Below, piece by piece: positions 24,401 to 48,543 of a stretch of DNA of 64,000 nt (within the stretch, counting starts at the first letter, position 1; each line of letters opens with the position of its first letter). The position numbers and the translations under genes were made by a program. The stretch spans positions 8,680,413-8,744,412 of the forward strand of contig NC_049979.1 of assembly GCF_000003815.2 (NCBI RefSeq), read 5' to 3'. This DNA is from Branchiostoma floridae (taxonomy: Eukaryota; Chordata; Leptocardii; Amphioxiformes; Branchiostomatidae). The notes beneath the pieces are model-generated. The model did no database searches. It was not told the DNA's origin and worked only from the letters and a program-made list of their open reading frames with translations.

Positions 24401-25457
24401 TCAGGGCGTACAAAGGGGATTATCTCAGGAAATCAGCTCTAATCTGACCCAATTAGATACTGTTAAGTGTTACAGAAGTAAATGAAAATTTACTCGCATG
24501 ACGAAAGCAATGTCCATTGCAGTTTGCACTTCCGTCGGCCCCAGGGAATGTGTAAAAGAAACGTCATAGGCTCCGGTTGCTACGTTACCGTCCACTACAA
24601 GTGTAATATAATGTTAAGGTGTTAGAAACAAGGTGTTATCACCATCAATTGACAATTACCTTGTTCATTTCCTCCCACATCTGCCGTCTGTCCAGATCCG
24701 GCATGGCGGCATAGGCGGCAAGGCAGGCGAGGAGCGGGTTCTGCACCTGCGGCAGAGCGTGGCCCACGATCGTGTACAGGATCTCATGGGTAGCCTCTTC
24801 CTCCGTCAGTCCGCACGTCTTTCCCAGATGAATTATCTCCTCATAGGCAGGCGCGTTTCTGATGTTCCTGAGGAGTACGGGCAGGGCTCGCAGTGCGTGA
24901 GATTTGGCTAGGTACCGGCCCAGAGTCGGCACCCGCGGCCTGTGGGAATGTAGTCCGTTCTGCCAGGCGCGCACAGACTCGTACGGCAGCGTGGTGCCCA
25001 GGATGACCGTCGACACCGCGTCCGCACAGAACCGGTTCACGCGGTCTTCGAAGTCGTAGATGTTGTGTCCGACCGTGGCCCACATCGACGTGTGCGCGTG
25101 GAGCTGTTCCACCATCGTGGAGAACAGGCTGTTGGTCAGGCTCCTCTGGATCACCGCCATGGCGAACTCCTTCCGTCTGACGTGCTCCACTCCGTTTGAC
25201 AACATGCCCGGACAGTGTCCACCCAGCACCGCCGGGCGTAACGCCGTGTTACCAAGTGTGAACGGTACCTTCTCCACTAGGTCCATGTCAAACACGTACC
25301 GAATGTTGTGTTGGTCCAGAAGACTGACGACAGTAACCCCGATGTTTCTCCGGAGCACCGTGGCGTCCGCCCCGCCGTAGTTGATCTCCTTTATGGAGTA
25401 GTTGCCCTGTTGAAGGGCCCGCCACATGCCCGCATAGTTGGAGCAGCAGTTCCCCAT
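21412..25457 (-). CDS. CYP74-clan cytochrome P450 (oxylipin-type)
   Basis: Exons in transcription order: 25457-24660, 22465-22301, 21876-21412 (1428 nt, 475 residues, about the length of plant CYP74 without transit peptide). CYP74 enzymes (allene oxide synthase, hydroperoxide lyase, epoxyalcohol synthase) rearrange fatty-acid hydroperoxides and need no oxygen or reductase. The K-helix EVLRLRPPMEMFFGRARKDF (E291, R294) matches the CYP74 form YECLRxEPP..QYGRAKKD. The heme Cys lies in TTENHQCPG (C383), like CYP74 GNKQCAG and unlike ordinary FxxGxRxC. Related enzymes (CYP440 family) are reported from lancelets. The start at 25457 has a strong context (G at -3, G at +4) and gives MGNCCSNY, a myristoylation-type N-terminus, instead of a membrane anchor. 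The I-helix position of the CYP74 catalytic Asn appears to be His233. Whether it makes an epoxyalcohol, allene oxide or aldehyde cannot be read from sequence. Confidence 0.9.
23041..23276. repeat. Long foldback element in P450 intron 1
   Basis: Two arms of more than 100 bp face each other. The left starts TTGCAATCTTCGAACGAGGC and the right, reverse-complemented, starts TTGCAGTCTTCGAACGGGGC. Both continue through TTTTTATTTTAGGGGG, a GGTTCGC-type block, GTTCTCTTAT and AGGGAGTTTG. The small centre lies near 23145-23165. The transcript would fold into a long stem. No protein-coding potential is seen. Confidence 0.7.
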
Positions 25458-28400
25458 GTCTATGTAACAACCAGGACCGCGAAGCCTAACTGTTCCCACC
25501 CAGAAAGTAAAGTGTAGTCCTGTTGTGTAACTCCACTTAGGAATGCGCAAACTTTGTCAGGCCTCCGCGCAGCTACAAGCCGGTCCAGTGAGTTCGGGAT
25601 TGGCATCGCCTGAAGTGACACAAGTAGACACCAGGAGTTAAACAAATAGGCTGAGCTGTGGCTCTTTTCTTGGCATTTCAATTAAGCCGTGCCGATGTAG
25701 TTTCTGGCTGACTTCTCTTTGACAATTTTGTGGTCCCCCCAGGTTGTTTTTGGCGATGTAATCGGTTACCAAAACAAAGTGTCTTAAGGGCCGCCCCACT
25801 CTTGACACGGAAGATAATCACATGACCAAACAGTCCGTACGGTCGGCACGAACCTCAGGGTTTTCACGATTTGGAGGAGAACACTGAAGCTCAGAACAGA
25901 ATACATTACAGAAAACTTTCTATCTTTGTACTCATTCCGCCTCAATGCATTTCTGACAATCCATTATGTAAAATGGACAGGATCCCCTGAGAGTTCGAGA
26001 CATCGAGCAATTATTCTTAAAATGATTTTGTCCTGCCATCAACATTACTATCATTACTAGTGTTAGAGGTCGTCTCCCTCATGCTCACCTTTATAGTCTG
26101 AGTATATCATCAGACCTGTAACGTGACATGTTGCTAGGTGAACTATGTGTACGTATGTTGGTAACAAATGAGGCACTTCGGCAATTACCATTCCTTCCAA
26201 ATACACGTACATGTCGTACCCTTTTGGAAAGGATACGGGTTATCCGGAGCACTGAAAGGACAGTTCGTCGAGTAAAACTCTCATTATGATCATTACTGAA
26301 TGAATGAAGACCTTTATTGTACATTCATACCCACTGGGTTTAGTACAGGTCACAACAAATGATACAACATGATATAATGATACAATGAATCTACACTACT
26401 CAAGGATCGTATTCTACTGCGTACATTCGGCTTCTTCTCGTTTCTTTGTGATATTGAAAATGTAAGAACAGATATGCTTTATAAGTAAAGGCTTGTCTAG
26501 ATTCATAAGGAATATAAATTTGTCTATATTACTTAGTTGTATGAAGTGGGGGAACATGGATTCTATTAGTCTGTAGAGTTCAGCTCTCTCTCTCTTGTAC
26601 AAACTACATTCTACTACAAAATGATGTTCGTCTTCTAACTTATCTAGATTGCAGTATCTACATATTCGTTGTTCTAGAGGAGTGCGGTTATGTCTTCCGG
26701 TTTCGATGTGTAATTTGTGGCAACTGACTCGTAGTTTTGTGACGGCCGTCCTGTGCCGAATATTGTCAATATCCAGGTATTGTTCCACATTATAAGTGGA
26801 CTTGAACAGTCTGTAAGACCTCAATTTGTTTTTAGCGGATCCACCTTTGTTGTCATTGTGTATCTCTCTTAGAAAAGTTTGAAAATAAATGTCTTTCAGA
26901 CGCTGGTTGATAGAATTGATAATTTGAGACGAATTTGTATTGTGCTGTAGAGGACAATGCCATACATAACCATAGCCGCATTCCTCCAGTGACTGGCGAA
27001 CTCCTGACGCCCAACACTTGGCTCCAGCCTTGTCTAAATCTATCTGGCAAGAAAGAGCGTCTGACTGGAAACTGTTACTGATTCAGGGAAGGGGGTACGT
27101 CACCTTGCACTCTGTCTTCTTTGGTGTACAAAAAACAACAACTTAAAGTTGTTGTTGCCCAAGATCAAGAAATGACCAGAAAAGGACTAGAAAAATGCCA
27201 CCGGCCATTCGTCCGAAAGCACGTTTACTCCCTGGCTATATCATGGGAGTTTGGCCACCAGAGGGGGAATTCCCGCGAACCGACTCTCCTGACCAATTAC
27301 TCCACCTTTTCCGAATTTTACCCCGTAAGGAAAACTGTTTTAGACTAACAGTTCCCCTTCTAAGTCTGTGCTCAACTGTTACAAACAGTGATCTGCTTCA
27401 TCTCCAAGGAGACCGACTCTTACATGGATAATGGTTGATAACCGTACGGGCACGAGGCCGCCGGTAGGTATATCTACAGTATGACGTACACATGGAGATA
27501 GAGTTACCGGACACACAGGTGTGAGACAGGTACATGTATGTGTATGAGGTAGGGACCTCTGTGTGAAAGAAAGGACCCTGTCGTCCGGAATAAGACCATA
27601 AGCCCAGTGTGCTGCGTCCGCACCTTTCCTCTGTGGTAGTCTTTGTTTGAAACGATCAAAGCCTCGTAGCAAACATGACTGCATTCATGAGTGATCGAAT
27701 TGTCATTGTGGGCATTTCCTATAGTTTATGCAGACACAATTGGCCGTTGTCTATACGTTGAAATACATGGATATTCTGCAAGGCGTAAGAACATGACTGT
27801 TCTTGGTCTATTTAGTTTTTTGAAATTTGAAGACCTGACACAAATCAAATCTCCTCCCTAGAAATTGTCTTGTCAATTGACTCTCTCTGAAAAGAAGAAT
27901 ACTATAACTTTACTGACCGTCTGCATATTTTCAAATATTTCTAATCTCGTCAAAGCCGGTGTCGTACCTGTTTGAGACAACGTGTACATAGCAGGTCCAT
28001 TCTAGTGTACCAAATGGCTCGAATCGCTGACAGCTCTGTGTGATGTTACCCACCATAAAGGTTGACACAGTACCTAGCATGGCTTGTCACCGTTTGAAAC
28101 AGGAGACACTGTGGCTGTCAGTACTACGCCAAGCAGAATAATTGTAAAGTCCGATGATCTATCCCATTCCTAACAACGTTCGCTGTCAACTACACTGCTG
28201 AATGTTGGCATGGGGCGCACCTTTTTTTTTTTTTGTACAGCATACCTTGCCTTGACGTCCAGGCTTTGCTGGTGCACACTACTAATATACCCACCTTTCA
28301 GGTCGATTTGTGACATCTGACAGACACCTTTGTTGTTAACAAACCTCATCCCCAGGTGGTTCAGGTTGTTATTTCACATGAGTTGCCATCGGAAGTCATT

Positions 28401-34714: not shown

Positions 34715-37700
34715 ATGGCCAGTGGTTTGCTGAAGGGAGCTGTGCTGTTGTTAGTGTCTGTGTTGTCCTGGCTGTGTGTTTACATGAAGGGGAGGTACAC
34801 AGTAGATGTGCAGAGCCTGCCACAGCACCCACGCTCACACCAACCTCCCTATCCCGGGGGGACGGCAGACAACTTACTATGGTTCCTTCAGGTAGGTATT
34901 GAAGTCTGTCTCAATCTCCCTGTATGTGAGATTGTTGATGGAAAACAACTTGTTTTTCTTTTTTTTCTTCACATCGCACTTTCAGTTTGTGATTCTGTCA
35001 CCTCCTTGCGATATCATTCTCGTGCTCACACTCACTCACTATCTGGTTCAGCATCAGCTCCCCCCCCTACTTTTGCCCCTCGCGGGGTCATTTGGGGGTA
35101 TCCTATGCAGATGCAGATGCATCCGTTGTTCCCTGTCTTGCAAGGGTTTGACATTGCGGGATGTTGTTAATGTTTGTGAAAGAAAAATACCGAGTCATTT
35201 GTTAGACTGGTATTCATCGGATTCCATACTTATACCTGGTCCTTGTCCAACGGGTTCTTGGATAGGTACCAGGTAGCTTAGAATATGGATGGATGCCAGG
35301 CTGGTAGTTGCACTGTTGGTGGCAGTGTTCTTTAGTACTGCAACAGCAATGCAGTGTTACATCATGGCACTGTTGAGGGCTATTTTCCAGATCTCTTACC
35401 AAAGTTACCATGCACCTGTTAAGCCCAAATGCTTTCAAAGTGGTTGTTTTGTTTGAAATTGATAAAACTGCAACACACTGCTAAAAAAAAATTCTAAAGC
35501 TAAAAAAAAATTCTAAAGCTTCTTCTTTCCTGATCACATTAGCTCAGCTTTCTGGCTTTATTGCAAAAGAAGACCCTGATAAATCAATATGCAGGCTATT
35601 CTGGTCATAACTAGGTCATTTAATAGCAAGGACATGCATTTTATTGACCTCTGTTGATATTCACTGACTGGATCCATGGACAGTTGTCTGTGGTATGTTG
35701 TCCAGGCATCTGTATCATGTTATATTAACCTTCCAGTCACTGAGATATTAGATTTAGATTAGATCTAAACTTTGCAGCCAAGGGGTCCCAGGATATCATG
35801 GAATATGTCTTCAGTACACTGAACAGAATATTTGTATTTTCATTTCATTCATTTCATTTTGTGTTTGTAAAAAATGTACCTTGATCTGTAAAAGATGTGT
35901 TTGATATTGAGTAGTTTTCCTGTTGATGATTGCAATCGGTGATTGTACCTTAATAAACGGTACAGTCAGTAAGTATGGTAATTGAGAGTAATGTGTTCAA
36001 ATGGTACATTTACATCTACCTTATTAGATGATCCACCATGCCAGCTGTCACTCCCAAGAGAGCCAGGATTTTTGCATATGAGCAAAAAACACTGACTCAT
36101 AATTTAACGTACATGTATTTAATTCTAGTGTCTGAGTAGACAAATGGAAAAGTGAGGCAAGAATAATATGTTGAATACTACATTTTTTCCTAACTTGTTG
36201 CCCATTGCAGGTGTCAGACATCCACATCAGCAGGTTCTATGACCCACAGAGAGTGACAGACTTAAAGCAGTTCTGTACTGAGAATGTCGATGTCTTTAAA
36301 CCTCCCATGGTCCTGGTAACTGGTAAGTTTTGCTTGAATGTGGAAATATATAAACCATTTTTCATTGCTGCTATCAGGTAAACTGTCCTTATTCTGTTAT
36401 TGTCCAGGTGATATCCCTTAAAAAAGCCCTGATAGAAAAAGTTGTGAGAATTGAAACCTGGACAGTATGCGGCTTTGTTCATTGCCCCTTATGCAGATAT
36501 CTTTCGACTAGACTGTTAGTGTTACCACTGAGCAACCAAACATTTGACAGATCTCTTATCCAATTACATAGATAATTAACAGATCGTTTTATATTTTGTG
36601 TGTTTTATTGCCTACTAAATCATACCTTTACATCTTCCATCATGTTCCAAACTGTTAAATTAAGGGTCAAACAAATTCAACATCGGTGGCTTATTGGAGT
36701 GCTGCATAGTGTAAAAGGGGCTTTGAAGTTTGACAATATTTTTATCAGTAACCTAGCTGAACATAAATGATGATACATGCTAGGTGTACAGGTGCCTCAT
36801 CTGATTGTGGTTGATTTTCTCATCTGATCTACCATATGGCTCTATGAAATTGACAGTCTGTCCCAAACCTGTTTTTCGTGTATTTTGTATATTAGGTGAT
36901 TTGACCGATGCTAAGACCATAGACCGGGGAGGGTCCATGCAGTATGAGGTGGAGTGGAGGACGTACTACGGTGTGCTGAAGGAGACTAACGTTATGGAGA
37001 GGACATTGTGGATGGACATCAGAGGCAACCATGGTCAGTAGGCTCCATTGATATTCATCTACCAGGTTACATAATCATATATCAACCACTTTGAAAAACA
37101 GTGTGTTTGTGAGATCTCTAGTGCAGTACTCCTCAGGTATCGTATGCACAGTTTAGATACGCAGTAGTGCATCAAACTGGGGATGTTATGTTGGAGATCA
37201 CTTTGGATGCATTTTTCAAGTTGGAGCATATATGTGTTCTTGTAGAATTGTGTTAGTAGATGTTAAACATTTTGACTCATGACATGCGCAGCCAGGATGT
37301 GTTTCATATTTAGGTATTTTTGTAGGTAAACAGTACTTAAATGTACCAGTAGGCCTCAAGTGTTGACCACTTCTTTTTGTGCCTTCCAGATGCTTTTGAT
37401 ATCCCTGCACTGCACAGCAATAGAAACTTCTTCAGGTATGTGCTTAATGTGAATTGAAACATCTAGGTGTCCTAGCTCATAGTGAGATATCCAGAATCAG
37501 AAAAAAAAAACATATTCAACAATACATTATCATAGTGGAACTGTCTGTTCAACTTTAATGCTTAAACTTTTCTCTAAATGTGCCAATGAAAATAAGTTGT
37601 AAGAGATGTCAATAAATGATCATTATAATTCAAAGGATTAGGAACCTTATAGCTTTACAACAGAACTGCTGCCATATATTGTGCCAGCTACTGTACTGCA

Positions 37701-40700
37701 CATTAGGCAGCCACAAAAGCACTGTTGACTTGTGTTGAGTCATGTTGACTTAATGTCAATCTTTCCTCCTACAGACAGTATTCCTCCATGGGGCAGACAG
37801 GAAAGATATCATACCACCACGCCCACAAGACTCCGTTTGGAACCTACTCCTTTGTGGCGTTAGACGCTTGCCTCAACCCTGGTCCAAGGAGACCCTTCAA
37901 CTTCTTCGGCTATCTTAATGAGGTTTGGTGCTGTTTAATGAGATTGCAATATACATGTAAAGTTGATGTAAGCCGTTCAGTAGAAAAAGAATCAAGGTTA
38001 GAAATACTTGACATCTGTTTTCTGCAATGCAGTTCATAATACAGAGTCTGTATACTTTTAGCTTGCCATATGGCAAGTTGTTGAATTTGGCTCTTCAATC
38101 TGAACAAATTATTTGCAACTTGTAGATTGCGAGTGTGTATTTTGAGACCTGAGAGTTCTTTGCAGTTGCTAAGGATACGTTTCCCATGTGATCACTCCAA
38201 GCTATTGTTAGGAAATATTTTAGCAGGGTAACTTAACTTGAACTGTTTAGATTCAGATGTTGTCATAGTAGTGAGCTGGGAAGGTTGAATGCTGCAATGT
38301 TTCCTCCCTCAGTCTTCCCTAGCCACCCTACAGAGCCTTGCAGATGAGACAGTCCACAGTAACATGACTATCTGGATGGGGCATCACCCTACTGCTACAA
38401 TCCTGTCTCCTAACCCTGGCATCAAACATGTCATCAGGTACTGGGAACAACAACAACTCCTCTGAATACAGCAAACATGTAACACATTTGTGTACATTTT
38501 TTCATTTCATTTATTACATTACCTGATCAATTTGATGTTTGTATCAAGGGAATAATTAGAACAAGGGTGGAGCAATAATGAGTATTTTTTACATCTCCAT
38601 CCCATGACATGCTGTAATGGAGGACTTTCTCCTGTTGTTATGTTTTCCCCAGGAATGGAATAGCTTACCTGTGTGGCCACCTGCACGACCTGGGCGGGCT
38701 GTTTCCTGTCATGTACTCCATGCAGGAGGGCGGGACCTTAGAGCTGGAGCTGTCGGACTGGATGAACAACAGGAGGTGAGCTCCACTTTCACCATTTATA
38801 ACAAGAAAATGCTATACTTGCATTTGGTGTTTAGGGTGTCAAGGCTCTCTTTTACGATTTTGTACATGAATTGATTGTGATCAGTGAAAGTCTGTCTGTT
38901 GACCTAAACTAATTGAAGCAATAGTCTCAAAAGTGCTCATTTTTCAAGCTCCAAATTTAAACTGTTAATGATCTAGATAGATCTATTATGAAGAGATGTA
39001 TTTGATTTGAAACTTACAACTGCTGACACAGTGTTGACTTTGGTCTGAGCTGTCTAAGATGACCCCTCCCTTGTTATCAAAGGTAGATTGTACAAATATT
39101 TCAGTATTAGAAATAAAGGTCCGTAATTTTGCTGCAGGTATCGCCTACTTGCTGCTGACCATGACATGCTGTCGTTCGTTGATGTGAAACTCGGGGAGTG
39201 GCCAGTGGTGCTGGTGACCAACCCCAAACATGCCATGTTTGCAACACCTTCCCATGAACCTCTGGGGAGGATACGGCATTCTACCCACATCAGGTTAGTC
39301 TAATATTTCATTCTGATGACCCTGTGTGTCGGGTAGAAATTGCCGGGTTTGCCGTCTAGGTGGATGATGTAAATCACCATATGGCTGATATGAGACAGAG
39401 GTTTGCCAGGCCTCCACCTGGGTGATTTGCAGTGAATCACCAACTACCGACCAAATGATTTGGACCATTGCACACCAGGGCATTCCCGTACTCTTTTTTG
39501 AAAGATTTATAGGTGGTAGATCATATTTAAAACTTAACATTGTGACAGACTGGAGCCTGTTCCAAACTTGTAAAACCATTCTTGCAGATTGCCCTATCTT
39601 TTTATGATGGGACAATTTTTATGTAGGTACATCAATGCTTAACCTTAAGTTCTATCGCCATTCTGTAGGGTGCTGGCATTCTCCCCAGATCCCATAGAGA
39701 AGGTGGTAGTGTGGCTGGATGGTGTGAGGTTCTGTGAGGCCAGTCATGTGGAGGGACCCTTATTCACCTGTCCCTGGAACCCTGCAGACTATGGGACAGG
39801 CCTGCACACCATTGCTGTGGATGTCTCTGTGAGTTTTGGGTGTCTTACAGGAACATGCCACTAACATGGAACACAACTTTTGAATGCTTAACTCACTGCA
39901 CAAAGAGTACCATCTGATCACACATGTGCCATAATTTTGCATAGAATATTCAAGGCTCGAATGTCTTCCATATGAGTCCAATTTAATCCTTCTGTGAAAC
40001 AACACGTGCATATACATTCCAGATGATTCTGGTCTAAGACCATACAGTGTACCAGAGACACTGAGACAGAGAAAAATTTGAATTATAGTTATGCAATCAT
40101 CTAAAGCTTATAACATGTACTGTGTAGTGAAAAACTCAAAAGACATACATGCACACTAACAGTTAAATTGAAAGGATTTACGATATGAAATTGTGGCAAC
40201 TTTTTTTAGAGATTACTAATTTTCCCCACACAGGACAGGAAAGGTCGTACCCGGCACCAGGAGCACCCCTTCTCTGTGGACGGCAGCCGGGCTAACATCT
40301 CCTTTGTCCAGACGGTCATCCTGCAGACAGACTGGCTGGTGTTGGTGGGTCAACTGGTTCTCCTGAAACTTTCAGACTGAAGACTTGATGAACATACTTA
40401 TTTTTGGACAATGATGTATCATTAGTTGGAAAGTATAGGATTTTACAACAAATCGTTATGATATGTTGCATGAAAACAGATTTGTTGAGTAGTTGAGAGA
40501 TATCATTCCAGTATGAATATGTGCTTTTTTTTTCCCAATGACATCAAGTTATACAACCAATTCCTGAGAAGGTAGTGATTTAACAACCTGATGAAACTAT
40601 TTACAGATCTATTGTCATGTATGTTCAAACCCCGACCCGACTCGGAGAGAGGGATATAGAGAAAGTATGGGAGTTAAACACACTCCATTTAAGCAGTGGA

Positions 40701-43618
40701 TTAGCCTCCTACTGTAGTGGTCTGTGTAGCCCAAGAGCTATTAAAATGGAAACAGGTACAGCCACTACACACCCAATGGTGTGGGAAAGATTTTAACTAC
40801 TTCCTGTGTGTTGTTCCAGATGAAGCTTGTATTCGTGCTGGTGTTCACGGCTGGTGTCCTGTCCCTGCCAGTCCTGCGGTACTGCAGCCCTGCCCTGCCC
40901 CCAGGTGGGTCCAGCCTGGACAGTGTTGGTGGTGCTGGCTGTGGTAATAAGGGTTCCCCCTCATTCCTGTCTGCTCATCCTCTCCCTAATCATCCTGGCC
41001 TGGTATCCAGCCTATTTCTAGCTCATCTGATTAGGCCCAGCAAAGAAAAATGTTCTATTTCTGGTTACGATCCTGAATAAGATAGGATCGACAGGTAATG
41101 ATTCTCTCTCTTGTTTTAAAGTTTAATGTTTGAATGGAAAAAAGTTGCAGTCTTCTGCAGGGAAGTGATCAGAGGGCTAGAATAGTATGGATACCAGGCT
41201 GAAATCGCCCAGGAATCATCCTTAATTTCCAAGTTCCACTTTTACTTACTCTCTCTAGAATTATTTTCATTCACAAATCATCATTATTTTATTTTTTCCA
41301 TCTGCCATTAGATCATCATTGTTCTGTGACCTCTGTTGGAATTGTTGTTTTTTACCTTGAACACCATCAGGCTGTTCTCGTTTACTGGAATTACTGGGAA
41401 TATCAGCTTGGTGTGGCATGATGAACATGAGTAAAGGTAATATATAATCACCTAGAATCAATACAATTTCGATACATGGATTCATAGCACTAAATAATGT
41501 AATTTCTGTCACAAATTTCATGAAAAATGTAACTCATTGACACCTGAAAATTGTGAATGCCATGAAATCTGTTGGTCTTGTTGAATTAGTTAAGAAAATA
41601 AATGGAATGTAATGTCTTCTAATGTTTCTTCTGAAATTGTCTAATGGTGCTATCACATTCACTGTACGTCCTCCTGCGATTTTGTTATCTTGCGATTTTC
41701 AAGCTTGCTGTAACAAAACCAACCAAGACAAAGATCTAAGCCTTTTTGGCAGCATGACAGCTTAAGTTTGTGCAACAAATGCACAACTATCCCCAGAATG
41801 CCTGCAGTTTCTGATCATACAACAATCATATGACAAATGTGTCAAGGCCCTTAGTCCCAATATCATTTTTTTGCAGGTGCGTACCCACGCCAGTTTGTAC
41901 AGAAGTGGCTGTCACGGCTGTCTCTGCTTACCAAGGTGGACCAGCTCTACTACCCGCTGTTCTGCTTCGGTGTCTACATTCCTATAGGTGGGTCTCAACC
42001 AGGTTTCTTTGAGACTCACTCCTGGGCTGTATGAGTAGTTTGCTCTTGACTTCGTGGTTGAATGTGAAATTGCTTTTTAGTGGCTCATACTTGGTATGTA
42101 ACTTTATGTCACTAATTGTGATAAAGTGGATCAATCAAAAGAAATTCTGATTTCATGTGTACAGTATCTTTTTTTTTGCTGCAACCAGATTTGGTCAGTC
42201 ATAAATTAGGATTTATACAGCCTGGTTTATCTCATTTTGAATGGCAATTTTTTGTTTGCAGCATAGCTTCACTACAATAGTACCAGCAGCAGATGATTAC
42301 GTTGATTTTTAACCTTGTTAAGTGTAGATTCCTGCAAAATTTTTCTTGCAGAGTGGCACAAGGTGAGTGGATATGTTTGCACTGTAGTGTTACCTTTCCC
42401 AGTCAAGTGACTATATGTTTCTTGCATGTCTTCGCTACATCAGGCCCATGGTTTTACGGCGAACTGATCCAAGGGTGCCATGGTGCACTCTTCATGCACG
42501 GGACCTACATAGCTGGAGCCTACGTACCAGGACTCTGGTCACATGCCTATGCCACTCTGCAGGTTAGGAATATAGTGAAGGGTTTATTTGTCAATGCTCT
42601 CTTTGTGTCTCTGCTACCATAGGCCCTTGGTATGTTGGAGAACTGATCAGAGGGCACTACGGTGCGCTCTTCATGCATGGGACGTACATAGCCGGTGGCT
42701 CCTTGCCGGGGCTAAAAACCTATGCCTTTGCTTCAGTACAGGTAAGAATCTTAGTTGAGAATTTTGTGGATTTTAAAATTCAGATTGGTTCTTCACAATT
42801 GGGGGATTTTGAATTCAGATTAGTTCTTCATGATTGGTAGATACATGTATTACCAATACATGTATTTCAACTGTCCAAGAACTTTCATGCATGTACAAGT
42901 TACCATACATTGTACCTGTTACAATCCTCATGCCATGAAGGTCCTCAATGGTTTGCTTGTGATGTCAATGACCACAACACAAATACACAGACATAAATGA
43001 AATTCTTATACTTTTTATAAGTGTATACCTGAGTAAGTAATTTGCTACTTTTATTCATAAGTGATCATCCTCTCTCTCTCTCTTTCAAAGCACAGGTTTC
43101 TTAGTCCATTTATATATACCATATTCAGTATGTCTTTATTAATTAATGTTCAGCACATGATGTTCAGGTCAATTGACTAGGTAGGTAGGTAGGTAGGTAG
43201 GTTCAGTACATTAGAATGCTCTAGGTGTGATGATAGAGCAAGTATATCAGCTATAATGCCTTTTGTATGCTTTGCTTTTCAGATCGCCCTTTTCCATGTG
43301 CCATTGACAGTCTACCTTGCCATGCTGCTGGATAACCATCTATGCCACCTCAGCCATAAAAACAACCAAGCCTCCAACAACCATGCCAAACCCAGATACA
43401 GGCTGTATCGGCAGCTCATCGGGCTCCTGCGACTTCATGGGTTTGGGGTCTTCTTTCTCATCTGGCAGTTATATTCCAGCTATTGGGTCCTGGTTGCATA
43501 CGGGACCATGTCGTTTCTAATATGTCCCCTGCGTACATGGTCTCTTCTTCTGGCCGCTTGGCTGATTTACAAGGTGCGAACGTTGCCAAAGGAGAAAGTC
43601 GCCCACCTGGTTAGATGA
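34715..43618 (+). CDS. TMEM62: TMEM62, membrane-bound metallophosphoesterase
   Basis: Exons: 34715-34891, 36211-36322, 36896-37033, 37390-37435, 37775-37922, 38313-38437, 38653-38775, 39138-39293, 39669-39828, 40234-40344, 40820-40904, 41877-41987, then either 42444-42562 or 42623-42741, then 43283-43618 (1947 nt with one of the pair, 648 residues; human about 643). An N-terminal anchor (about residues 5-25) precedes a calcineurin-like phosphoesterase domain with all its metal motifs: SDIH (D62, H64), GDLTD (97-101), GNHD (140-143), GHH (230-232) and GHLH (257-260). A beta-rich segment and then several C-terminal membrane spans follow (exons 11 to 14). The domain should face the lumen or outside; its substrate is unknown. 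The tandem exon pair is described separately. ATG context is good (AAGATGG). Confidence 0.95.
35220..35306. repeat. Small inverted element in TMEM62 intron 1
   Basis: The left part reads ATTCCATACTTATACCTGGT and the right part, reverse-complemented, reads CATCCATATTCTAAGCTACC and then TGGTACC. The right end carries GCCAGGCT. It belongs to the same loose family as 60257-60367. Confidence 0.4.
40998..41199. mobile_element. MITE with CCTGGTATCCA termini in TMEM62 intron 11
   Basis: The ends are inverted: GCCTGGTATCCAGCCTATTT at left and, reverse-complemented, GCCTGGTATCCATACTATTC at right, each followed by TAGC. The 202-bp element has no coding potential. It shares its outer bases with the other AGCCTGG elements in the window. 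Confidence 0.6.
42444..42562 (+). CDS. TMEM62: TMEM62 alternative exon 13a
   Basis: An exon of 119 nt with a CATCAG acceptor and an AG/GTTAGG donor. It encodes 40 residues counting the split codon, starting GPWFYGELIQG and containing GALFMHGTYIAG. Its copy, 13b, has the same length and phase (in 1, out 0) and is 26 of 40 identical. Only one of the two can be used in a given mRNA, because joining both shifts the frame. The upstream intron is 456 bp. Confidence 0.85.
42623..42741 (+). CDS. TMEM62: TMEM62 alternative exon 13b
   Basis: An exon of 119 nt with an ACCATAG acceptor and an AG/GTAAGA donor, the stronger donor of the pair. It encodes GPWYVGELIRG and GALFMHGTYIAG, and differs from 13a in the middle and C-terminal part (GGSLPGLKTYAFASVQ). 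Only 60 bp separate it from 13a. The exon lies in the membrane-span region, so the choice would change one loop or span rather than the catalytic domain. Confidence 0.85.
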
Positions 43619-46161: not shown

Positions 46162-48543
46162 TTACATATAGATGCTGCCTTCATACGGATCCCACATGTC
46201 CTTGGGCAGGTCGTACACGAGGAAGAAGAGAAGCCCGGAGATGAGCGCCAGCACCATGCAGACCCAGGCGATGATGTAGGAGTATCCCCAGTACAGCACC
46301 ACACCGCCGGGGCCCGGGGTACCACGGATGAAGCCGGTGTACAGCGCAGCGGCGATCATGATTAGGAGACCTAGATGTACGGACAAAACACGACAACACG
46401 ACAAGGGTGATGAGCAAACAGGTGTACAGTTTGTTTTTTTTGCCTTTGACCGATAATTTTACCAACAAGCAATTTGAGAATTTTGCCCCAAATAACTTGA
46501 TGGGAGTTGGTGTTAAATTTGAGAAATGATCGATTTTCACTGACACTGTATGACGAACAAGTTCTCTGTTCTTCCATTCGGAAGATAAATTCATATCTGT
46601 AATGCTACCAAACCTTTCATCGCACAACATATTTGTTCCTTCATTTCTACTATGCCAGGAAAAGTTTAATTTATTTAATGTCTGCTAGGTAACCTTGTAT
46701 TTATGAACGTTTTAACATATTTAAGGTGTTGTGACCTGTACTTAGCCCTGTGTGGCCAAAATGCCCAATAAGTATCTACATTAATACAATAATGTGGCAA
46801 ACAAAGCATCTTAAGACTACGACATAGCTCCTTGATGTGTGTCTTCGAAAGTTACGAATGACACTGTTCGCACCTGTGAGGATCATGAGTGCGCCGGCAA
46901 CTTTGGGCTGGTTGATCTTGTGAGAAATACAGATGAATCCCAGAATGCCCAGCACCAAGGCGACGAACGCCGTGAAGACGGAGAACACCATGAGGAACCG
47001 GACGGCGTGCAGCCAGCCCTCGTCGGTACCTGGATTAAAACAGAAGGACGTTATATAGCACGGACGTAGGCCTGTCTGTCTTCAGAGCATAATGTACGAA
47101 AAGAAGAGGTTCTGATACTAAGTGATAGAAGGGGCTGACACACTTCTATTTACTAGTAAATGGGTGGTAGGCTGGTTTTCATAGCTAGACTGATATCCAA
47201 ACCTATTGTAGCTCCCGAGTATTTGCTTGTAGGTTTGAATACCAGACTAGGTTTTTATCCAAATCTGTCCTGCTCGTCGCTTCATGCCCGTTATACATAA
47301 CGTACAGCAAGAGTTGGGAGGAATGTTGCGAACAGTCATATATTATATTACCATAAACGAGTTTATACTCGTTTTGTATCTAACAGACGATTTCGTTGTA
47401 GAAATATAGAATATCTTTTGTTCCCCTTTTGAAGACAGCGGTCCCAAATCTTGGAGAATAACTGTACTTAACCCATCTATGGAACGTTAAAGACCCAATC
47501 CCCTCGGATTCTCTAGGATTATACGTATTAGTGACAGCGGGTTGTTGTTATAGTGAATAAGCGAATGCGTTAACGTTAGTAACGAATGGGTGGGCGTTGA
47601 TAATGCATATGAGACCTGGGTGTTTTCTGAATCTATGTCATTACAACTCATTATAACCACGAGAAAAACGGTCCAATCCGAATATGTTTTGGCGACGTAA
47701 GAAAGGTCGACGCGATTTCAGTTCTTGATGAATAGACTCAACAGTAAATGCTGGCAAACTGTCTGACGGTACGAAAGTACGAGTGACTCGTAGGGTCTGA
47801 CGATAACACTCACGGTACATTATACATGGCACCTTGAGTACTAAGTGCATTCGAATATCTGGTAATTGATTTGGGCGGGACACAAATTATTCGCCGAGTG
47901 GCAAACAATTTACCGCTTGGGAGCAAGACAAAGATCATGCGATGAAAACTTAAGCACGAAAAACAGAAGAGTATTTTTCTTTTCAAATTGAAAATTCACC
48001 TCAGGTTTTGACACGAAAACCGAAATAAAGGATCTCACAATGGAGGTCATTTGCTCCAATGGGAAACTCCAAAGAATGCTCTGTCATACAGGATACACTC
48101 ACATAAAGGACACGAACAATAACGTGCGGCTGGGGTTCTGTGCTGCTATCTGCGCGCAAGATATACGCGAAAATCGTAACAACGTGCTGGAATGAATGTG
48201 TTTTTGACCTTTCCCAGAGATAAAACAACAAGGGCACACAAAGCTAGAGGACGCCATGGTGGTTCCTTTCATTCTTACAAAGCAGCAGTGCCTGACCTTG
48301 GACCTTAAAAGCTTGTACAATTACAGACAAGATGGGTGACATACCGATATCCAGTAGCTTACAGCTCCGGTAGTACCCCTGGAATCTGCACGATATGAAA
48401 ATCCCGAAGCTCTCCCTGAAGAAGGTCTCCTCCGTGACGCGCCAGGTGCTGGTGGCGGTGGCCACGACGGTTAGGACCAGGGTGGCTGCCGCCAGCAAGC
48501 AGGCCAGGGCTCGGATCTCCTGCATCCGACAGCACAGCACCAT
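46162..48543 (-). CDS. PMP22/EMP/claudin-superfamily tetraspan
   Basis: Exons in transcription order: 48543-48345, 47029-46874, 46370-46162 (564 nt, 187 residues, within the PMP22/EMP/LIM2 range). Four membrane spans lie at about residues 9-30, 77-101, 109-131 and 148-170. The first loop has W34 and the Cys pair C52 and C61, the superfamily signature, but the usual GLW before the first Cys reads GIF (GIFISC). The third span ALMILTG...ALYTG resembles the LIM2/EMP third span. The C-terminal tail is short (DMWDPYEGSIYM). Members act in junctions, myelin or ion-channel regulation; which role applies here is unknown. The ATG has ACA before and G after. A TATA-like box sits 38 bases upstream. Confidence 0.88.
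47185..47250. repeat. Small inverted element in the PMP22-like intron 1
   Basis: The left arm CTAGACTGATATCCAAACCT and the right arm, reverse-complemented CTAGTCTGGTATTCAAACCT, form a 66-bp stem-loop element related in style to the other short palindromic elements. Confidence 0.45.

Follow-up and report, generated by a model that had tools for sequence, protein, structure and literature searches.

A putative two-member mutually exclusive exon cassette in the TMEM62 gene of amphioxus

Two neighbouring exons of equal length lie near the 3′ end of a TMEM62-type gene in amphioxus and encode similar versions of one short protein segment, which raises the question of whether they are used as strict alternatives or whether the duplication has some other meaning. 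The locus was analysed in a window of 64,000 nucleotides (C1:8680413–8744412), and the genome searched comprised 513,431,437 bases in 431 contigs, part of the assembly being N (34,557 of the 200,000 bases sampled). The gene model rebuilt here has 14 coding exons per isoform, exon 13 being either 13A or 13B (hereafter also A and B), and its coding part (34715..43618, plus strand) encodes 648 aa without interruption, all introns being of the GT..AG type. Coding exons 1–6 occupy 34715–34891, 36211–36322, 36896–37033, 37390–37435, 37775–37922, and 38313–38437, and exons 7–12 occupy 38653–38775, 39138–39293, 39669–39828, 40234–40344, 40820–40904, and 41877–41987, all on the plus strand. Exon 12 (41877..41987) is the common upstream exon and ends in phase 1, and exon 14 (43283..43618, plus strand), the last coding exon common to both isoforms, holds the stop codon. 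Two further observations on the minus strand of the window were made by eye: a 303-aa open frame at 24645–25556 resembles part of a cytochrome P450, and hydrophobic open frames at 46162–47081 resemble exons of a small membrane protein with several spans.

The name TMEM62, given to the gene in the initial annotation, holds on account of three Pfam matches: Ig_TMM62 (49.9 bits in isoform A and 50 in isoform B; cut-off, 27), Metallophos (33.8 and 34.2 bits, respectively; cut-off, 21.5), and TMEM62_C, which scores about at its cut-off of 21 (19.2 bits in isoform A, just below, and 21.2 bits in isoform B, just above). The domain set of the TMEM62 family, consisting of Metallophos, an Ig-like domain, and a C-terminal membrane domain, is present, the last being marginal. 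The encoded protein also carries the motifs DIH, GDLTD, GNHD, and GHLH, which we take to be the metal-binding motifs of calcineurin-like phosphoesterases. The two 40-aa exon peptides by themselves matched no Pfam family, and isoform A gave no relative in PDB at E 0.01.

The TMEM62 gene is single-copy in the assembly. All 10 genomic matches of the N-terminal protein and five of the six matches of the C-terminal protein fall at the TMEM62 locus; the sixth, on contig C2, is weak (E 0.05), contains a stop, and was rejected as a second gene. Protein searches of the 513-Mb, partly N assembly thus returned no second TMEM62 gene. When the Pfam TMEM62_C model was run over the genome, five matches were obtained at E 0.19 or worse, none of which is the TMEM62 gene. 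The best of these, on contig C3, exceeds the cut-off when neighbouring matches are included and is interrupted by two stops; its longest open frame resembles the end of a GPCR by eye, and it was taken as a chance match to a membrane protein rather than a relative of TMEM62. The same model found no matches in any of 14 control genomes. Among the matches listed for openly available literature on TMEM62 (transmembrane protein 62), no paper carries TMEM62 in its title, and no title or abstract opening describes an exon pair in this gene; the one listed match that links TMEM62 with mutual exclusivity concerns TMC5.

Exon 13A (42444..42562; GPWFYGELIQGCHGALFMHGTYIAGAYVPGLWSHAYATLQ) and exon 13B (42623..42741; GPWYVGELIRGHYGALFMHGTYIAGGSLPGLKTYAFASVQ) are both on the plus strand and 119 nt long, with the first Gly of each split with exon 12, and are separated by a 60-nt spacer (42563..42622, plus strand) that carries the pyrimidine tract of B. 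Each exon lies between AG and GT, with phase 1 at its start and phase 0 at its end; the lengths, equal phase, and spacing first reported for the pair are reproduced exactly. The reported identity of 26 of 40 residues also agrees with our count, comprising 25 of the 39 full codons and the common split Gly codon, and includes the shared core GALFMHGTYIAG. When the window was searched by tblastn with each of the 40-aa peptides, no third full copy of the exon was found, and exact matching of a degenerate DNA pattern for the core gave two hits in the partly N assembly, namely exons 13A and 13B.

The isoform with 13A and that with 13B are each open over 648 aa. Joining of both exons, which had been predicted to shift the frame, leads in the rebuilt model to an early stop at aa 544, which lies 95 nt ahead of the last junction. 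With the spacer retained, the stop falls at aa 556 (119 nt ahead of that junction), and with both exons skipped it falls at aa 514, within the last exon. By the usual 50–55-nt rule for nonsense-mediated decay (NMD), the A+B and spacer-retention products are predicted NMD targets, because their stops lie 95 and 119 nt upstream of that junction. The pair therefore has the features of a mutually exclusive exon (MXE) cassette formed by tandem duplication, being adjacent, homologous, of equal length and phase, flanked by canonical splice sites, and open with either exon alone, with neither both nor none giving an open frame. Productive mRNA would accordingly run from exon 12 through A or B to exon 14, and joining A to B would yield a truncated product that could be degraded by NMD.

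A second source of exclusivity may be steric. The spacer is shorter than the other introns of the TMEM62 gene (215–1319 nt on the A route), as had been stated for the window and as is confirmed here within this gene, and its only yUnAy match places the predicted branch-point A at +24 from exon A's donor. The human MXE atlas assigns steric interference to a distance of <50 bp between donor and branch point, which accounts for 57 clusters (9%) in that study (PMC5740500); by way of the yUnAy match, the lancelet pair would fall in this class, the branch point being predicted. Splicing from A to B would be hindered by a branch point so near to A's donor. The initial annotation regarded the spacer as probably too short to be spliced out; its shortness stands, but removal of such a short intron is conceivable, since human introns of 37–65 nt (PMC4463651) and a 56-nt human intron (PMC8363638) are spliced, and steric blocking is uncertain for this reason. 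The strict either/or layout stands at the level of sequence, but its strictness rests first on the frame, which is broken by A+B, by neither exon, and by spacer retention, and in second place, probably, on steric blocking.

The same spliceability of short introns, together with the position of the A+B stop, lends some weight to a different reading, namely that A and B are also joined to each other, giving a truncated, NMD-targeted transcript that tunes the level of TMEM62, so that the pair would be partly an expression switch. Against this reading are the yUnAy A in the spacer and the protein-level constraint on both exons described below, which needs a protein-producing use of each; we consider it distinctly unlikely.

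Exons A and B share 83 of 119 nucleotides, i.e., they differ at 30% of positions, with 10, 8, and 18 differences at the first, second, and third codon positions, respectively. Estimates of dN/dS are 0.231/1.518 (NG86), 0.255/1.846 (LWL85), and 0.242/1.097 (ML), corresponding to a pairwise ratio of 0.14–0.22, which is rough because dS is near saturation and only 39 codons are compared. In simulations of neutral divergence to the same nucleotide identity (5000 runs per starting exon), at least 25 of 39 residues were kept in 0.06% of the runs starting from A and 0.08% of those starting from B, and when an open frame and splice dinucleotides were additionally demanded, the proportion was 0.02%. 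Neither copy has a stop, an indel, or a lost splice dinucleotide despite dS > 1. Even when all amino-acid changes are loaded on one copy with half of the synonymous change, dN/dS is 0.28–0.44. Within the limits of a pairwise comparison, these values indicate protein-level constraint on both copies, and the pair, judged by its divergence, is an old tandem duplication of exon 13 held under such constraint.

These data bear directly on whether only one exon is used, the other being a silent and slowly decaying duplicate. Exon A would be the candidate for such decay: its acceptor (6.0) is the lowest of the gene's 14 and its donor (7.4) is modest, and the isoform containing it is the one that falls just under the TMEM62_C cut-off passed by isoform B, the two being ~2 bits apart. 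However, five other donors of the gene are weaker than that of A (3.6–6.5), both copies are intact after dS > 1, the worst-case loading on a single copy still leaves a ratio well short of one, and the neutral simulations almost never yield such a pair; this reading is therefore rated as improbable. That the pair is an assembly artefact of misjoined alleles is scarcely credible. Lancelets are highly polymorphic, which could favour such a misjoin, but the copies differ by 30% at the nucleotide level and the assembly has one copy of the gene. Taken together, the best explanation, to which we give a probability of about 85%, is that exons A and B constitute a two-member mutually exclusive cassette in TMEM62 that originated when exon 13 was duplicated in tandem long ago.

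Within the proposed cassette, exon B (acceptor, 8.3; donor, 11.3) is likely to be the default, since both its splice sites outscore those of A. The splice-site scores used throughout derive from human weights. Eleven regulator patterns were scanned around the pair. Three copies of TGCATG, an RBFOX-type element, occur in the surrounding 1295 nt, versus 0.40 expected from the window (P 0.008) and 0.41 from the sampled genome; they lie in the acceptor region of exon A (42423..42428, plus strand), inside exon B (42674), and downstream of B (42888). Control of the pair by RBFOX is a possibility suggested by these motifs, which emerged after the scan of all eleven patterns. NOVA, QKI, CELF, and ESRP types are about at or under expectation, and the MBNL type is found five times versus 2.2 expected. 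The PTB types exceed expectation (TCTT, 16 vs 6.8; CTCTCT, 6 vs 0.7; TCTCT, 7 vs 1.8), with a CT microsatellite accounting for five of the six CTCTCT and five of the seven TCTCT occurrences. This microsatellite (43070–43083) lies in the intron downstream of B and is a possible PTB-type site. The same intron contains, directly downstream of B, two tandem 35-nt units that are 77% alike (42764–42833), the second of which is overlapped by a 22-nt stretch (42825–42846) with 77% likeness to TCTTCATGCATGGGACGTACAT of exon B.

The donor of exon A is also the site of a predicted RNA hairpin. Its 5′ arm (42347..42358, plus strand) is intronic and is an exact 12-nt complement of the 3′ arm (42550..42561, plus strand), which forms the end of exon 13A and adjoins the donor GT at 42563. 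The duplex energy of the A donor region with the upstream intron is -30.4 kcal/mol, versus -13.7 to -24.1 kcal/mol for the 12 other donors tested, including that of B, which gives -14.5 kcal/mol with the same intron; pairing of the B donor with the downstream intron gives -12.4 kcal/mol. None of 137 blocks from the window and none of 339 from the genome pairs as well with A's donor; among 407 donor-like sites sampled from the genome, however, two show equally strong pairing with the sequence upstream of them. When six splice sites were considered together, an exact 12-nt complement appeared in one of 2000 shuffles; for A's donor by itself it appeared in none of 2000, and three of 1240 real positions in the window have one at a like distance. 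Of the 192 synonymous ways to encode the last four residues of exon A, only 2 would pair perfectly. Part of the pairing is explained by the self-complementarity of CTGCAG. The stem has a predicted probability of 0.99 in three fold ranges, and the fold of a 601-nt region has a z-score of -2.57 against 20 shuffles. A second inverted repeat, 41993–42009 with 42744–42760 (82% complementary, -15.3 kcal/mol), plays no part in our explanation.

If the hairpin forms, it would mask the 5′ splice site of exon A, and its opening would be needed for the use of A. This regulatory role, proposed for a structure that was found by looking, is tentative, the odds being somewhat against it. The arrangement recalls the clusters of Dscam and srp governed by docking/selector and bidirectional RNA pairing, in which long-range pairing likewise occurs beside duplicated exons (PMC6071210). 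It differs from them in having a single stem, between the intron and the 5′ splice site region of A, with none comparable at B's donor. The docking/selector type calls for one docking site that can pair with a selector beside every exon; judged by the donors compared, with strong pairing at that of A only, the TMEM62 pair does not match this type.

Upstream of exon A, a candidate 11-nt microexon, M (42352..42362, plus strand; AGTGGCACAAG), was noted. Its donor (12.0) is the gene's best, whereas its acceptor (7.8) is moderate, being equalled or beaten by 10 of 14. M might serve as a third alternative or as a poison microexon, or it may be due to chance. On the plus strand of the 64 kb it is the sole acceptor/donor pair 3–30 nt apart with scores of at least 6 and 9, respectively, and the minus strand has one; the background rate in 200 kb of this genome, N bases excluded, corresponds to 0.014 such pairs expected per 456 nt at 6/9 (10 pairs counted) and 0.0014 at 6/11 (1 pair counted). 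Because 11 and 119 leave an equal remainder modulo 3, a transcript joining exon 12, M, and exon 14 is open over 612 aa, with EWHK in place of the 40 residues, and combinations of M with A or with B meet a stop at aa 508. A study of neural microexons dates them to bilaterian ancestors, ascribes to the eMIC-dependent exons acceptor-proximal UGC motifs and extended AG-free zones, and names amphioxus once in its main text, for low conservation of the eMIC programme (PMC8797185). M resembles this type in length, donor, and UGC near the acceptor, but AGs lie 24 and 29 nt upstream, leaving a short AG-free zone.

The reading of M as a genuine microexon, whether an in-frame third alternative to A and B or a poison exon if joined to one of them, is favoured by the rarity of the site pair, the matching remainder and open frame, and the UGC motifs. 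It was, however, found after looking, and the in-frame fit is a one-in-three chance; the acceptor is undistinguished among those of the gene and is partly a by-product of complementarity to the CTGCAG end of exon A, and an M-only transcript would lose the GALFMHGTYIAG core. We regard this extension of the set as unlikely. A fuller version, in which M, A, and B would form a three-way exclusive set and the hairpin would join M's acceptor region to A's 5′ splice site region, silencing both and leaving B as the default, is a speculative elaboration to which we attach little credence.

The proposed two-member cassette of A and B has known counterparts. Among human MXEs, exon lengths not divisible by three occur in 60% of the clusters, and two-exon clusters share with the lancelet pair the neighbouring, similar exons in the same frame, the non-3n length, and, for its predicted branch point, a donor-to-branch-point distance of <50 bp; the difference is that TMEM62 is absent from the main text of that atlas (PMC5740500) and the splicing of the TMEM62 pair is predicted from sequence. 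The FGFR IIIb/IIIc exons, for which amphioxus transcripts have been studied, likewise stem from one tandem exon duplication, which preceded the separation of the chordate sub-phyla, and are used in a mutually exclusive manner; they are Esrp-regulated and conserved across chordates, whereas the TMEM62 pair is compared here from one genome (PMC5703972). The JNK exons form an exclusive pair in human JNKs, and the gene is alternatively spliced in amphioxus too, under Nova, but these exons belong to the kinase domain and have this known regulator (PMC8586503). The layout of the TMEM62 pair is familiar, the gene is little studied, and the predicted RNA hairpin alongside the pair is unusual.

In the encoded protein, exon 13 corresponds to aa 498–537, between hydrophobic peaks at 488–506 and 535–553. 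The choice between A and B would exchange 40 residues of the membrane domain that lie between two of its hydrophobic segments, with the GALFMHGTYIAG core kept, the flanks differing, and the net charge changing from -1 in A to +1 in B; the 14 differing residues are candidates for a functional role. With the predicted hairpin next to one 5′ splice site and the neighbouring microexon-like segment, the mechanism of choice lends itself to direct testing. TMEM62 is a little-studied membrane phosphoesterase, and an old exon pair whose amino-acid sequence is maintained by selection suggests a role as a functional dial for the region between its membrane segments.
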